The notes under the pieces are model-generated. The model worked only from the letters and a program-made list of their open reading frames with translations, was not told the DNA's origin and ran no database searches. Source: Acetobacterium sp. (GTDB taxonomy: Bacteria; Bacillota; Clostridia; Eubacteriales; Eubacteriaceae). From it: 47,148 nucleotides of DNA. The position numbers and the translations under genes were made by a program. Location: the NCBI GenBank assembly GCA_028692885.1, contig JAQUWM010000014.1, positions 1-47,148 of the forward strand. Reading direction: 5' to 3'. Below are positions 26,725-36,191 of the stretch, one piece after another. The stretch's first letter is position 1, and each line of letters begins with the position of its first letter.

Positions 26725-27576
26725 CTAAATTTTATAATCTTCTACTGCATCCATCAGTCCAAATTCAAAGAGTATTTCTTCGAGCCGATCGGTTGACATC
26801 GGTTTTGGAATCACAAAATTTTCGTTTTCCTCGATTTTTTTCGCAAGATCCCGGTACTCGCCGGCCTGCTTAGATTCCGGAGCAAAATCGATTACTGTTT
26901 TCTTTCTAATTTCTGCGTGCTGGACAATATTATCCCGGGGCACAAAATGAATCAACTGAGTGCCAAGTTCTGCAGAAAAAGCCCGTAATAATTCGTATTC
27001 CCGATCCACGTTGCGGCTGTTACAAATAATGCCGCCCAGTCTGACCTTCCCTTTGGTAGCGAATTTTTGAATGCCTTTAGCAATATTATTGGCTGCATAT
27101 AAGGCCATCATTTCACCACTTCCGACAATGTAAATTTCTCGAGCCTTGCCCTCCCGGATGGGCATCGCAAAACCACCGCAAACCACATCGCCAAGGACAT
27201 CATAAAAGACATAGTCTAGATCTTCATCATATGCGCCCAATCTTTCCAGTAAACCAATCGACGTAATAATGCCACGGCCAGCACAGCCAACCCCTGGTTC
27301 CGGGCCACCAGATTCTACACAGCGAATACCCCGGTATCCGTCTCTGACGATATGTTCAAGATCAATCTCTTCACCTGTTTCACGGAGGGTATCCAGAACC
27401 GTTTTCTGAGCCAGTCCGCCCAGTAGTAAGCGGGTGGAATCTGCTTTGGGATCGCAGCCAACAATCATGACGCCTTTTCCGTTTTCGGCCAGCCCGGCGG
27501 TCAAATTCTGAGTGGTCGTTGACTTACCGATACCACCCTTTCCATAAATTGCAATTTGTCTAATTTTTTTTGTCAT
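26725..27576 (-). CDS. Nitrogenase-like reductase (NifH-like)
   Basis: A 283-residue NifH-family ATPase. It keeps the P-loop GKGGIGKS (12-19), the two cluster cysteines Cys98 (GVGCAGRG) and Cys133 (VVCGGF), and the loop Arg101 that is ADP-ribosylated in some NifH proteins. It would be a dimeric 4Fe-4S protein that passes electrons to the D-K component at ATP cost. The start ATG at 27576 follows GAAAGGA; a TTG lies five codons upstream. It is the last gene of the D-K-H set. The companions are not nitrogen-fixing D/K by context, as no nifE, nifN or nifV is present; a C-S bond-cleaving system is more likely. Confidence 0.93.
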
Positions 27577-27616
27577 TATATTTCCTTTCAACTGATCAAT
27601 CGATTATTTTTAGTGC

Positions 27617-28963
27617 TTAGCCCCGAACCGTTTCGGAGTAAATTTTTTCAAGCAGGGTCAGGGCACCGTGATACCCAACGTAGGTACGGTTGATCACCAC
27701 TTCCGAAACAATCGGTGTACTGATGGGGATGAGTAAACCCTTGATTTCTTTTGCCACATCGGACTCCCAGGACGACCCTAGGATCAGTGGGACACTTGAT
27801 CCGTAATCAACATTTCTAACTTTTTCTTCAATTACATAACCATCTTCGATAAATTCCACATCCAACGGGAATTCATCTGAAATGTCGTGAAAAAGTTTCT
27901 GAATGTTCTGTCGATGTTTTTCGGGGGTATTATCGGTAATGATTTGTTTGGTGGGAATCAGACCAATCTGATCGGTCAGAAACTTTGTAATGGCTAGATT
28001 GTAGGCGGCATCACCAACGGTCACAAATCTTGCCGGTAACCCAAACCAGTATTCTGAAAAAAACTCTGAAAAATGTTCCAGAAAATAATAATACCGTTCC
28101 GCTTCGGTGCTGATAAACGCTTCCGCTTTTTTATTGTCAATCCCGGCAAAGTCCACCAGCTCCCGGATAAACTCAGTTGTTGCTTCTTCGCCGATCGGGA
28201 TGACCGGAACATGCAAAAAGGGCTGCTTGTATTTGGTCTCCAGATGTTTTGCTATTTCCAGACCAACCCAGGGTGAAACCACCAGATTAAACTGCGCTTT
28301 CGGTACCTCTTTCCATTCACTGACACCACCCGACTCGGAGCCGAAGAGCACATTGACTTTGAATCCGGCGCCTTCTAAAACCCGTTTTAATTCGATACTG
28401 TCACCCCGCCAGTTGGCGTGGTAATAGGGAACGTCAAACCAGAGATTGATCAGGCCTTTTTTCTTTCGCCCCTTATATTCACCGACATACTGGTCAATGA
28501 TGGCTTTAACGACATTTTCATGACCAGTAAGATTGTTACCTTTAAATCCAGCAGCCTCTGCATGAACCACCGGATAACCCTTTTCCTGATACTCTTTGAC
28601 AATAGCACCCACGTCATCGCCAATCAATTCAATTGAGCAACCGGTGAGAACCACGTAAATATCACCATCCATAATTTTCAAGGATGATTTGATTAAATCA
28701 TCCAGTTTTTTGTGCCCCCCAAAGACAATTTCATTTTCTCCCACGTTGGTACTTGGGAGAGCACCGCCACCACTGTATCCGGCACCTTGAAAACCGTTCG
28801 AGAACGAAAGCATAAAATACTGTTTATCCGCACAACCCGGCCCGCAATTAGCGATTGGGATACCTCTCGGAATGGCGGCCACCGTATTAATTGCGCCAAT
28901 AGCACAGCCATAACGGGGATGGACAATGGTATTGCTTTTTTTTGTTTGATTAACTTCTGTCAT
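27617..28963 (-). CDS. Nitrogenase-like component, K-type subunit
   Basis: A 448-residue member of the NifD/NifK/NifE/NifN family. P-cluster-type cysteines line up with NifK: Cys20 (PRYGCAIGA, like Cys70), Cys44 (GPGC, like Cys95) and Cys109 (TGCSIELIGDDV, like Cys153). Cys40 is an additional nearby cysteine. It is shorter than true NifK. ATG at 28963 follows GAAAGGA; an upstream TTG would add five residues. It follows the D-type gene after 33 bases. Its substrate is not shown; methylthio-alkane reductase (MarK) is the best analogue I know for such a set in a sulfur context. Confidence 0.88.
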   Translation of the reverse strand: MTEVNQTKKSNTIVHPRYGCAIGAINTVAAIPRGIPIANCGPGCADKQYFMLSFSNGFQGAGYSGGGALPSTNVGENEIVFGGHKKLDDLIKSSLKIMDGDIYVVLTGCSIELIGDDVGAIVKEYQEKGYPVVHAEAAGFKGNNLTGHENVVKAIIDQYVGEYKGRKKKGLINLWFDVPYYHANWRGDSIELKRVLEGAGFKVNVLFGSESGGVSEWKEVPKAQFNLVVSPWVGLEIAKHLETKYKQPFLHVPVIPIGEEATTEFIRELVDFAGIDNKKAEAFISTEAERYYYFLEHFSEFFSEYWFGLPARFVTVGDAAYNLAITKFLTDQIGLIPTKQIITDNTPEKHRQNIQKLFHDISDEFPLDVEFIEDGYVIEEKVRNVDYGSSVPLILGSSWESDVAKEIKGLLIPISTPIVSEVVINRTYVGYHGALTLLEKIYSETVRG

Positions 28964-28996
28964 ATTTTTTCCTTTCAAAGCTTGTTTGATTCACAA

Positions 28997-35835: not shown

Positions 35836-35916
35836 CTTTTCACCTCATAATAAATTAGCGTTTAACTTGTTTATACCTTGTTAAGCAGTGTCGTTTTATT
35901 CTTAGGAAAAACTCAA

Positions 35917-35980
35917 TAAAAAAAGGCTCCAGAAAAAGATTACTCTTATTCTGGAACCTCCAGTTGACTGGTCAGTTCCA
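35917..35980 (-). promoter_or_regulatory. Putative attenuator between yezD and nifX-nifB
   Basis: On the minus strand two hairpins compete. The first pairs GTTCCA with TGGAAC (35952-35957 with 35975-35980) around CCAGT/ACTGG. The second, a terminator, uses part of the same segment: GGTTCCAGAA (35958-35949) pairs with TTCTGGAGCC (35934-35925), and a run of T follows (35924-35917). Both cannot form fully at once. The effector is unknown and no known riboswitch consensus was recognised. Confidence 0.55.
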
Positions 35981-36026
35981 CGACTTTATTATTTAATTAA
36001 CCCGCTTGTTTGCCATGACTAAATTG

Positions 36027-36191
36027 TTACTTTAAACGAATCTTCTCGTTTTTTTCGATTTGAACAATCTTGCCGTCCTAGATGATCAAGGTAATAGATC
36101 CATATTGAATACACTCGATATAATCAATCAGCTTTTTTAAATCACGTTCCGAAATCTGAGTTACTTTTTGATTATCACTAGAATCTGACAT
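36027..36191 (-). pseudogene. yezD: YezD-family small protein with in-frame amber codon
   Basis: A 54-codon frame from ATG 36191 to TAA, broken by TAG at codon 38 (36080-36078). The part before it (IQYGSITLII) and after it (DGKIVQIEKNEKIRL) together match the YezD/DUF2292 family, in which the residue at this place is normally Gln. CAG to TAG is one change. YezD-like genes lie in sulfur-linked clusters in other bacteria. The gene is first in the nitrogenase-like operon. The amber could be a mutation, a sequencing error or suppressed; the first is the plainest reading. Confidence 0.8.

Follow-up and report, generated by a model that had tools for sequence, protein, structure and literature searches.

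We analysed a 47,148-nucleotide stretch of DNA (hereafter the window; contig JAQUWM010000014.1, C99 in our numbering, of a 3.03-Mb Acetobacterium sp. draft genome that is 87% complete) and found a minus-strand gene cluster, running from position 36191 to 26725, that probably encodes a methylthio-alkane reductase (MAR) whose D and K subunits belong to a MarDK subclade designated M1. The enzyme would work with a NifH-type Fe protein and supply methanethiol to the sulfhydrylase MetY, under control of both an operator and antitermination. MAR, which bears a nitrogenase cofactor precursor, acts on methylated sulfur compounds to form methane, ethane or ethylene. The cluster comprises, in order, a DUF2292 frame, nifX, nifB, a lipoprotein substrate-binding gene, genes for an ATPase and a permease, cysK, and the genes for subunits D, K and H. 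The enzyme is of a known kind; the type of Fe protein and the control appear to be new, the leader RNA and its link with DUF2292 most so. A preliminary description of this DNA had listed D-, K- and H-type genes, nifB, a nifX-like gene, an SsuABC-type importer and cysK on one strand and had proposed a MAR-related, sulfur-regulated enzyme with its importer and cofactor genes in one cluster of a probable acetogen; open reading frames and protein families agree with the gene content, and the D and K scores, the D tree and the operator all speak for the proposal.

The D and K subunits are of the MAR type

When compared with proteins in the PDB, the product of the D gene (28997..30622, minus strand) scored about 650 bits against Rhodospirillum rubrum MarD, to which it is 57% identical, and 138 against the next best match, a nitrogenase alpha chain. 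The product of the K gene (27617..28978, minus strand) scored 584 bits against R. rubrum MarK and 64 against the next best. Twelve cluster and active-site positions of MarD are named in a published account of R. rubrum MAR (PMC12552129), and the window D is identical at 12 of 12: Cys66, Cys73, Cys91, Cys158, Cys270, Gln74, His194, Trp195, Phe199, His375, Arg428 and His429. Two of these residues, Cys270 and His429, are ligands of the cofactor, and Arg428 belongs to the extended loop; His376, beside the published positions, is also identical. All P-cluster cysteines are present, three of three in D and three of three in K. Trees were made for D and for H, and K was assigned by its PDB score. In the D tree (51 rows), the window D falls within M1, a 19-row subclade (support 100/100) of sequences from Bacillota, Synergistota and Succinivibrio, and M1 joins R. 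rubrum MarD and six Bacillota sequences in a 26-row clade (100/100). We assign D and K, on their sequences, to the MAR type, subclade M1. The preliminary description had named placement among CfbD-type or NifDK proteins as the outcome that would overturn its proposal; scores and tree came out for MAR, the tree being one without CfbD or Bch sequences. CfbD and Bch identities were rejected on NCBIfam scores of at most 51.5 and 98.8 bits over D and K.

The six Bacillota sequences, for which M2 is a label of convenience and not one supported clade, are 69-72% identical to R. rubrum MarD, with which the groups given the working labels C3, C4 and C5 share 41-47%, 32-37% and about 31% identity. Many C3, C4 and C5 loci also lie amid NifB/NifX, importers, CysK, MccB or MetY. 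Of the 51 rows, all but the two C5 rows and the two nif controls have the Arg-His pair of the special loop, but His194 was seen in M1, M2 and R. rubrum MarD alone; the Arg-His pair therefore marks a wider group than MAR. Loci L021 and L064, which carry the same genes as L076 and L027, were left out of the residue table and the D tree.

Some of the loci examined contain more than one nitrogenase-like (NFL) system. On a Lachnospiraceae contig (L030), M1-type D/K pairs lie in tandem and there are several genes of SsuABC-type importers, which suggests substrate diversification. Locus L075 (genome G004) has a second NFL system, of clade C3 (D about 42% identical), ~15 kb from its M1 cluster, and L074 (G013) has a C3 system without an M1 cluster; each of these C3 systems has its own H, NifX, NifB and MetY, with the leader hairpin described below 5' of it. 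Plasmids of Treponema saccharophilum and Candidatus Chlorohelix (L062, L063) carry several NFL D/K genes, NifX and importers, and on the Chlorohelix plasmid a copy of the hairpin precedes a peptide-type binding protein. A search of plasmids for MAR relatives returned distant NFLs and nitrogenases alone, all at <60% identity.

The Fe protein is of the NifH type

The preliminary description had read the D-, K- and H-type genes together as a MAR-related enzyme; for H, a MarH-type identity was not supported. The H protein (26725..27591, minus strand) scored 457 bits against Clostridium pasteurianum NifH and 287 against R. rubrum MarH in the PDB, the reverse of the scores obtained with a MarH-type protein from a C3 locus (501 against MarH, 290 against NifH). 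In the H tree (43 rows), a branch with 100/100 support splits five MarH-type rows from 38 NifH-type rows, and the window H is on the NifH side, in a 21-row group of H proteins from sulfur clusters (94/97, below the threshold for a starred branch) that stands apart from nif and vnf H. For this tree, L114 was removed (a faulty extraction of 698 amino acids), and H proteins already present via other loci were left out; L103, a copy of L102, was also dropped. All 11 H rows near M1 D/K are NifH-type; at nine other M1-like D loci (L023, L026, L027, L029, L030, L032, L033, L035 and L066) no H frame matched within the stretch examined. The approximately unbiased test did not reject a tree in which 17 rows stay together (15 counted as nif or vnf, plus two H from NFL contexts; p-AU 0.083), so more than one order of Fe-protein events is compatible with the tree.

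A genome carrying another M1 locus bears on the partnership between MarDK and this type of Fe protein. In G433, the genome of L022, the Fe protein has a single match at E 1e-60 or better and PF00148 has two at E 1e-20 or better, and L022 itself bears M1 D, K and H. The two PF00148 matches must be the M1 D and K, and by these counts the NifH-type protein of G433 has no nitrogenase partner to serve. The same counts were obtained in G393, G246 and G427, whose D proteins are of C3 or C4 type. In a search of the open-licence literature we saw no account of a MarDK that goes with an H of the NifH type. The heliobacterial systems resemble the window in having MAR-type D/K in Bacillota and several other NFL copies in the genome, but the NifH homologues linked to MarDK there are described, in the relevant part of that study, as clustering with MarH (PMC9147875), whereas the window H clusters with NifH. 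A MarH-type reductase, found in R. rubrum and the heliobacteria, is usual for MAR, though arguably no defining feature.

The genome also has its own nitrogenase genes, with frames for nifD, nifK, nifE and a fused nifN-nifB on another contig (C118). The preliminary description had observed that neither nifE nor nifN is in the window, and none was seen there; as an argument, their absence carries no weight because of the genes on C118. It had also held that nifEN elsewhere, adjacent to an ammonium-controlled nitrogen-fixation set, would count against its proposal, and of this the genes themselves were found. One full NifH gene was found in the genome, a count that says little because C118 ends where nifH would be expected and the genome is 87% complete.

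A leader hairpin overlaps a terminator

Between DUF2292 and nifX lies a 29-nt antiterminator-like hairpin (35952..35980, minus strand; N6-UGA-N4-loop-N4-AG-N6; -14.3 kcal/mol, z -3.1), which scored 37.1 bits with a covariance model (E 1.0e-6 in its genome). Its 3' half doubles as the 5' arm of an intrinsic terminator stem (35922..35961, minus strand; -23.0 kcal/mol, z -5.5) that is followed by a T-run. Because the two structures exclude each other in the window and the terminator is the more stable, the default should be off.

The preliminary description mentions neither this leader RNA nor the DUF2292 frame. The hairpin was first spotted by comparing the leaders of relatives, from which the window copy differs by one pair per stem, altered on both sides. 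A degenerate pattern matched four places in 19 genomes of the genus, one for each NFL operon found (in G000, in G013 and two in G004), and the reversed control gave no match in the same 19 genomes. A structural scan of NFL loci found 24 matches, where 12 shuffles averaged 2.5. The covariance model was built from 18 copies (18 of 20, two identical to a kept hairpin being dropped); a pairing rule had served to find these copies, which in part predetermines the covariation counts. With this model, 24 of 31 whole genomes had a match at E 0.3 or better. Clostridium tyrobutyricum (G381, the genome of L027) had 24 hairpins, 21 of them, among the matches listed, on three contigs that hold NFL D/K. Five Acetobacterium genomes without such an NFL D gave no match (G001, G009 and G017) or one weak match each (G014 and G016; E 0.011 and 0.115).

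We used 62 of 78 matches for counts of downstream genes and terminators, dropping 15 weaker than E 0.004 and one duplicate. The first downstream gene of at least 80 amino acids encodes a relative of a window mar, sulfur or importer protein in 37 of the 62 (D, 9; H, 9; NifX/NifB, 8; Ssu-type importer, 8; MetY, 2; CysK, 1), an enrichment that is partly a matter of choice because many of the loci had been selected for NFL genes. Judged by eye, the other downstream genes encode, among others, binding proteins of the sulfate, methionine and cystine types, a corrinoid protein and also products with no obvious link to sulfur. A terminator that satisfies a strict rule, with its 5' arm starting in the hairpin, was present at 26/62 matches and at 9/2000 random places in the same loci. 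The hairpin recurs before such genes in many anaerobes.

Rfam gave no relevant match, and a known Rfam element was rejected on that ground: the window yielded a group II intron domain alone (RF01999; 1286-1401, minus strand) and the hairpin a chance-level match (E 4.1). An ANTAR target was also rejected. In ANTAR antitermination, too, a leader hairpin excludes an overlapping terminator, and the published description of these targets specifies two hairpins with six-base loops that have A at position 1 and G at position 4 (PMC3369931). The element described here is, in contrast, one hairpin with an A-rich loop and a UGA/AG internal loop; the loop has 4-5 bases in 18/18 aligned copies (the finding rule allowed 3-6), and no second conserved hairpin was seen upstream in the aligned copies by eye. 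A 2010 study mentions a conserved attenuator before the genes of a sulfonate ABC importer operon in bacilli (PMC2965389), which in its position resembles our element and, from what is said of it there, may or may not be the same one; the hairpin is otherwise apparently undescribed.

DUF2292 co-occurs with the hairpin

The first frame of the cluster (36027..36203, minus strand) encodes a DUF2292/YezD protein, a member of a small uncharacterised family (PF10055) that, in the genomes searched, also occurs in Bacillus subtilis. No PDB entry matched DUF2292 at an E below 0.79, and a single-sequence structure model predicts a helix and two strands (mean predicted local distance difference test, pLDDT, 80.9). 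The frame of the window copy contains a TAG (36078-36080); of the 18 distinct other copies read, 16 have Gln there. A search of the draft genome gave no second copy. If the TAG is real, either the factor is gone from this strain or the system can do without DUF2292. In G342, a diverged second copy (on contig C21) also has a TAG.

Among 391 genomes of the class, the hairpin occurs in 34 (E 0.01 or better; about 4 by chance), DUF2292 in 29, and both in 25, where 2.5 would be expected (Fisher 6e-28; this and the following statistics ignore phylogeny). Of the 23 NFL-positive genomes, 18 have both, none has one only and five have neither (3e-5); the other 368 divide into seven with both, nine with the hairpin only, four with DUF2292 only and 348 with neither (2e-8). 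Removal of the nine genomes that had contributed to the model left 382, with 16 sharing both of 25 and 20 (1.3 expected; 1e-18), and counting by genus gave 15 shared of 22 and 19 among 222 (8e-15). DUF2292 is found in 17 of the 18 genomes whose hairpin reaches E 1e-4 or better; G340, with a weak hairpin (0.0015), has no DUF2292 match. The two also lie close together: in 18 of 29 genomes (one copy each compared) DUF2292 and a hairpin share a strand and lie no more than 400 nt apart, DUF2292 coming first in 16 of these. This co-occurrence fits DUF2292 acting on the hairpin, and it also fits both being no more than members of a common regulon.

An operator is shared with sulfur genes

The preliminary description had also claimed an operator common to the cluster and to sulfur genes, which we found at three sites. 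An operator-like sequence, AAACATATAGGAAATATATG, lies just behind promoter-like sequences of mar (36220..36234), metY (26438..26457) and a corrinoid-protein operon (42853..42872), all on the minus strand. The looser pattern AAACATATNGGAANT, with at most one mismatch, has three sites in the window (36220, mar; 26443, metY; 42858, corrinoid-protein operon), against a mean of 0.16 in 100 shuffles, 0/100 of which reached three, although this chance figure flatters because the pattern was derived from these very sites. A gene for an Rrf2-family regulator (43071..43505, minus strand; PF02082) adjoins a second CysK-type gene (43505-44437; PF00291), a pair that we take to resemble the arrangement of the CymR repressor and that suggests a CymR-like repressor as the candidate operator binder. 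Right behind the metY operator, the leader (26326-26409, minus strand) contains a short frame with five Cys in 27 codons, a possible cysteine attenuator peptide.

Cofactor, importer and neighbouring genes

The nifB gene (34619..35485, minus strand) encodes a NifB-type radical SAM protein with the CxxxCxxC motif and without the C-terminal NifX-like domain; it covers positions 10-290 of the 441 in TIGR01290 at 267.4 bits, under the full-length cut-off of 343.65. The C-terminal domain is encoded by a separate gene, nifX (35482..35835, minus strand; PF02579), whose product matches TIGR01290 positions 331-423, and together the two genes therefore look like a split NifB. The importer consists of an SsuC/TauC-like permease (31607..32530; PF00528, NCBIfam below cut-off), an SsuB/TauB/NtrCD-like ATPase (32531..33337; PF00005, importer-family NCBIfam below cut-off) and an SsuA-like lipoprotein substrate-binding protein (33363 to about 34433; assigned at the level of the SsuA family, below the NCBIfam cut-off), all on the minus strand. 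A one-base frameshift separates the signal-peptide sequence from that of the mature protein in the substrate-binding gene, which is intact in L021, from an Acetobacterium woodii metagenome-assembled genome that is the nearest named relative of the cluster (D 91% identical to the window D) and whose contig stretch recurs under G004, a genome of the same genus. We read the importer as a putative SsuABC-type organosulfur carrier, for which thioethers are a possible substrate; importers beside M1 vary by locus, being either of SsuABC type or of a two-permease type. The cysK gene (30661..31593, minus strand) encodes a cysteine synthase (TIGR01139, 434.7 bits, above cut-off).

On the 3' side of the cluster are metY (24843..26252, minus strand), for an O-acetylhomoserine sulfhydrylase (TIGR01326, 652.9 bits, above cut-off), metA (23757..24677, minus strand), for a homoserine O-acyltransferase (best match NF047918 MetA_acetyl, 441.3 bits, just under the cut-off of 460.5), and genes for an MtaA-like protein, MccB and a CysK/CBS-like protein. 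On the 5' side are genes for a RACo activase, two MtaA/UroD-like proteins, DUF1638, CobW and a corrinoid protein, followed by the Rrf2 and second CysK-type genes. The one-strand corrinoid methyltransferase cluster among them (36420-42829, minus strand; RACo, URO-D, MtaA/MtbA-like and corrinoid proteins) resembles type 1 mlp gene clusters, which are defined in the published survey by at least two Mlps, a corrinoid protein and Ram/RACE in one direction (PMC10418091), and it has its operator in common with mar and metY. Some type 1 mlp clusters likewise have the corrinoid protein, MtaA/UroD-like proteins and Ram/RACo activase by Mar genes; the MarHDK-like neighbours, by contrast, are termed group IV-A homologues in the part of the survey dealing with them (PMC10418091), where neither Fe-protein type nor leader control is taken up. 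Elsewhere in the window, a plus-strand gene (18080-20026) encodes a protein whose N-terminal domain is IscU/NifU-like and whose C-terminal domain is ThiF/MoeB-like.

A model for the cluster

In this model, the SsuABC-type importer would bring in an organosulfur compound, for which we would guess at an anionic thioether as one that fits a sulfonate-type importer. By analogy with R. rubrum MAR, NifB would make the [Fe8S9C] cluster, which a MAR carries without homocitrate, and H, with ATP, would pass electrons via the P-cluster to this cluster in MarDK, which would split the C-S bond reductively to give methanethiol and a hydrocarbon. MetY could then join methanethiol to O-acetylhomoserine to form methionine; methanethiol is a fitting product because metY adjoins the cluster. 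Transcription would be controlled at two points: by a Rrf2/CymR-like repressor at the operator, and by the leader terminator, which would be passed solely if the 29-nt hairpin were stabilised, possibly by DUF2292/YezD or another sulfur-limitation factor.

The cluster resembles R. rubrum MarBHDK in its D and K sequences, the six P-cluster cysteines, Cys270, Arg428-His429, the active-site residues, a NifB-type protein and the sulfur context, as far as these are set out for the R. rubrum enzyme (PMC12552129). It differs in belonging to M1 and in having a NifH-type instead of a MarH-type Fe protein; a separate nifX, an SsuABC-type importer, CysK, MetY alongside, the leader RNA and DUF2292 are further features of the window, the comparison here being with the R. 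rubrum enzyme and not with its locus. Several observations weigh against the model. The frameshift in the substrate-binding gene and the stop in DUF2292 mean that the window copy may be decaying, or they are errors of the draft assembly; the stop also counts, as far as it goes, against DUF2292 as an antiterminator. Relatives of the importer carry sulfonates, nitrate and other compounds, so that its sequence gives no pointer to a thioether substrate. Four NFL-positive genomes (G118, G247, G292 and G436) have no hairpin match with the covariance model, so the hairpin is not needed for every NFL system, and at 36 of the 62 hairpin matches the strict rule finds no terminator of the kind described.

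Alternative explanations

Loss of function would account for both lesions, the frameshift and the TAG, but each is a single-base event in an incomplete draft and the frames of D, K, H, NifB, NifX, CysK, permease and ATPase are all open, and we consider a decaying, non-functional copy quite improbable. A better case, though still an unlikely one, can be made for a related C-S reductase with another substrate, M1 having diverged from the R. rubrum type of MAR to act, for example, on a charged thioether that suits an SsuABC-type importer. Genome G410 holds one D of M1, a second that is like R. rubrum MarD (71.6% identity) and a third of clade C3, which suggests division of labour, and the importers beside M1 differ among loci; against this stand the identity of all 12 published active-site and ligand positions with those of R. 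rubrum MarD and the adjacent MetY, which fits methanethiol. An enzyme of the isethionate reductase (Isr) type, which frees sulfite from a sulfonate, shares with the window the combination of an NFL enzyme, a radical SAM protein and an SsuCAB importer for sulfur scavenging (PMC11423573). IsrD, however, as described in the same report, keeps one of three P-cluster cysteines and lacks the Cys275 equivalent, both of which are complete in the window D, and IsrB is like NifB in the radical SAM motif only, whereas the window NifB aligns along the greater part of the TIGR01290 model. These residues largely refute an Isr identity, which we regard as highly implausible; the comparison is one of residues, Isr being outside the trees. 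A nitrogenase or nitrogenase maturase is just as implausible and was rejected: H is NifH-type, but D and K are far from NifDK and NifEN by PDB scores and, for D, by the tree, the Gln and His of the genome's own NifD (Gln191 and His195) are Trp and Phe in the window D, and nifDKEN-B sit elsewhere in the genome.

The alternative to a role for DUF2292 is that another RNA-binding protein (of ANTAR or PRD type, for instance) or a small molecule reads the hairpin, DUF2292 being a mere member of the regulon, and to this we give an even chance. Nine hairpin-positive genomes of the 391 have no DUF2292 match, one of them (G090) with a strong hairpin (2.6e-6); DUF2292 is a near neighbour of the hairpin, which would be expected of a regulon member; and the window copy is interrupted, its draft genome having yielded no second one. 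The published ANTAR targets, on the other hand, are pairs of six-base-loop hairpins (PMC3369931), here replaced by one with a 4-5 base loop, and the co-occurrence of DUF2292 with the hairpin holds in genomes with and without NFL genes. The wider proposal is that DUF2292/YezD is an RNA-binding antiterminator of a sulfur-starvation regulon in anaerobes, favouring the hairpin over the terminator before genes for NFL C-S reductases, NifB, MetY and importers of organosulfur compounds or sulfate, with MarDK having swapped MarH for a NifH-type protein; we put it forward tentatively, as a possibility that falls somewhat short of even.

An M1 MarDK that goes together with a NifH-type Fe protein would allow the requirements for Fe-protein recognition to be studied in a natural setting, and with them whether a single Fe protein can act in N2 fixation as well as in sulfur scavenging. 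With the leader RNA as a guide, further C-S reductases and importers could be located even where they lack homology to known proteins, and for DUF2292/YezD the hairpin suggests a first function that can be put to the test.

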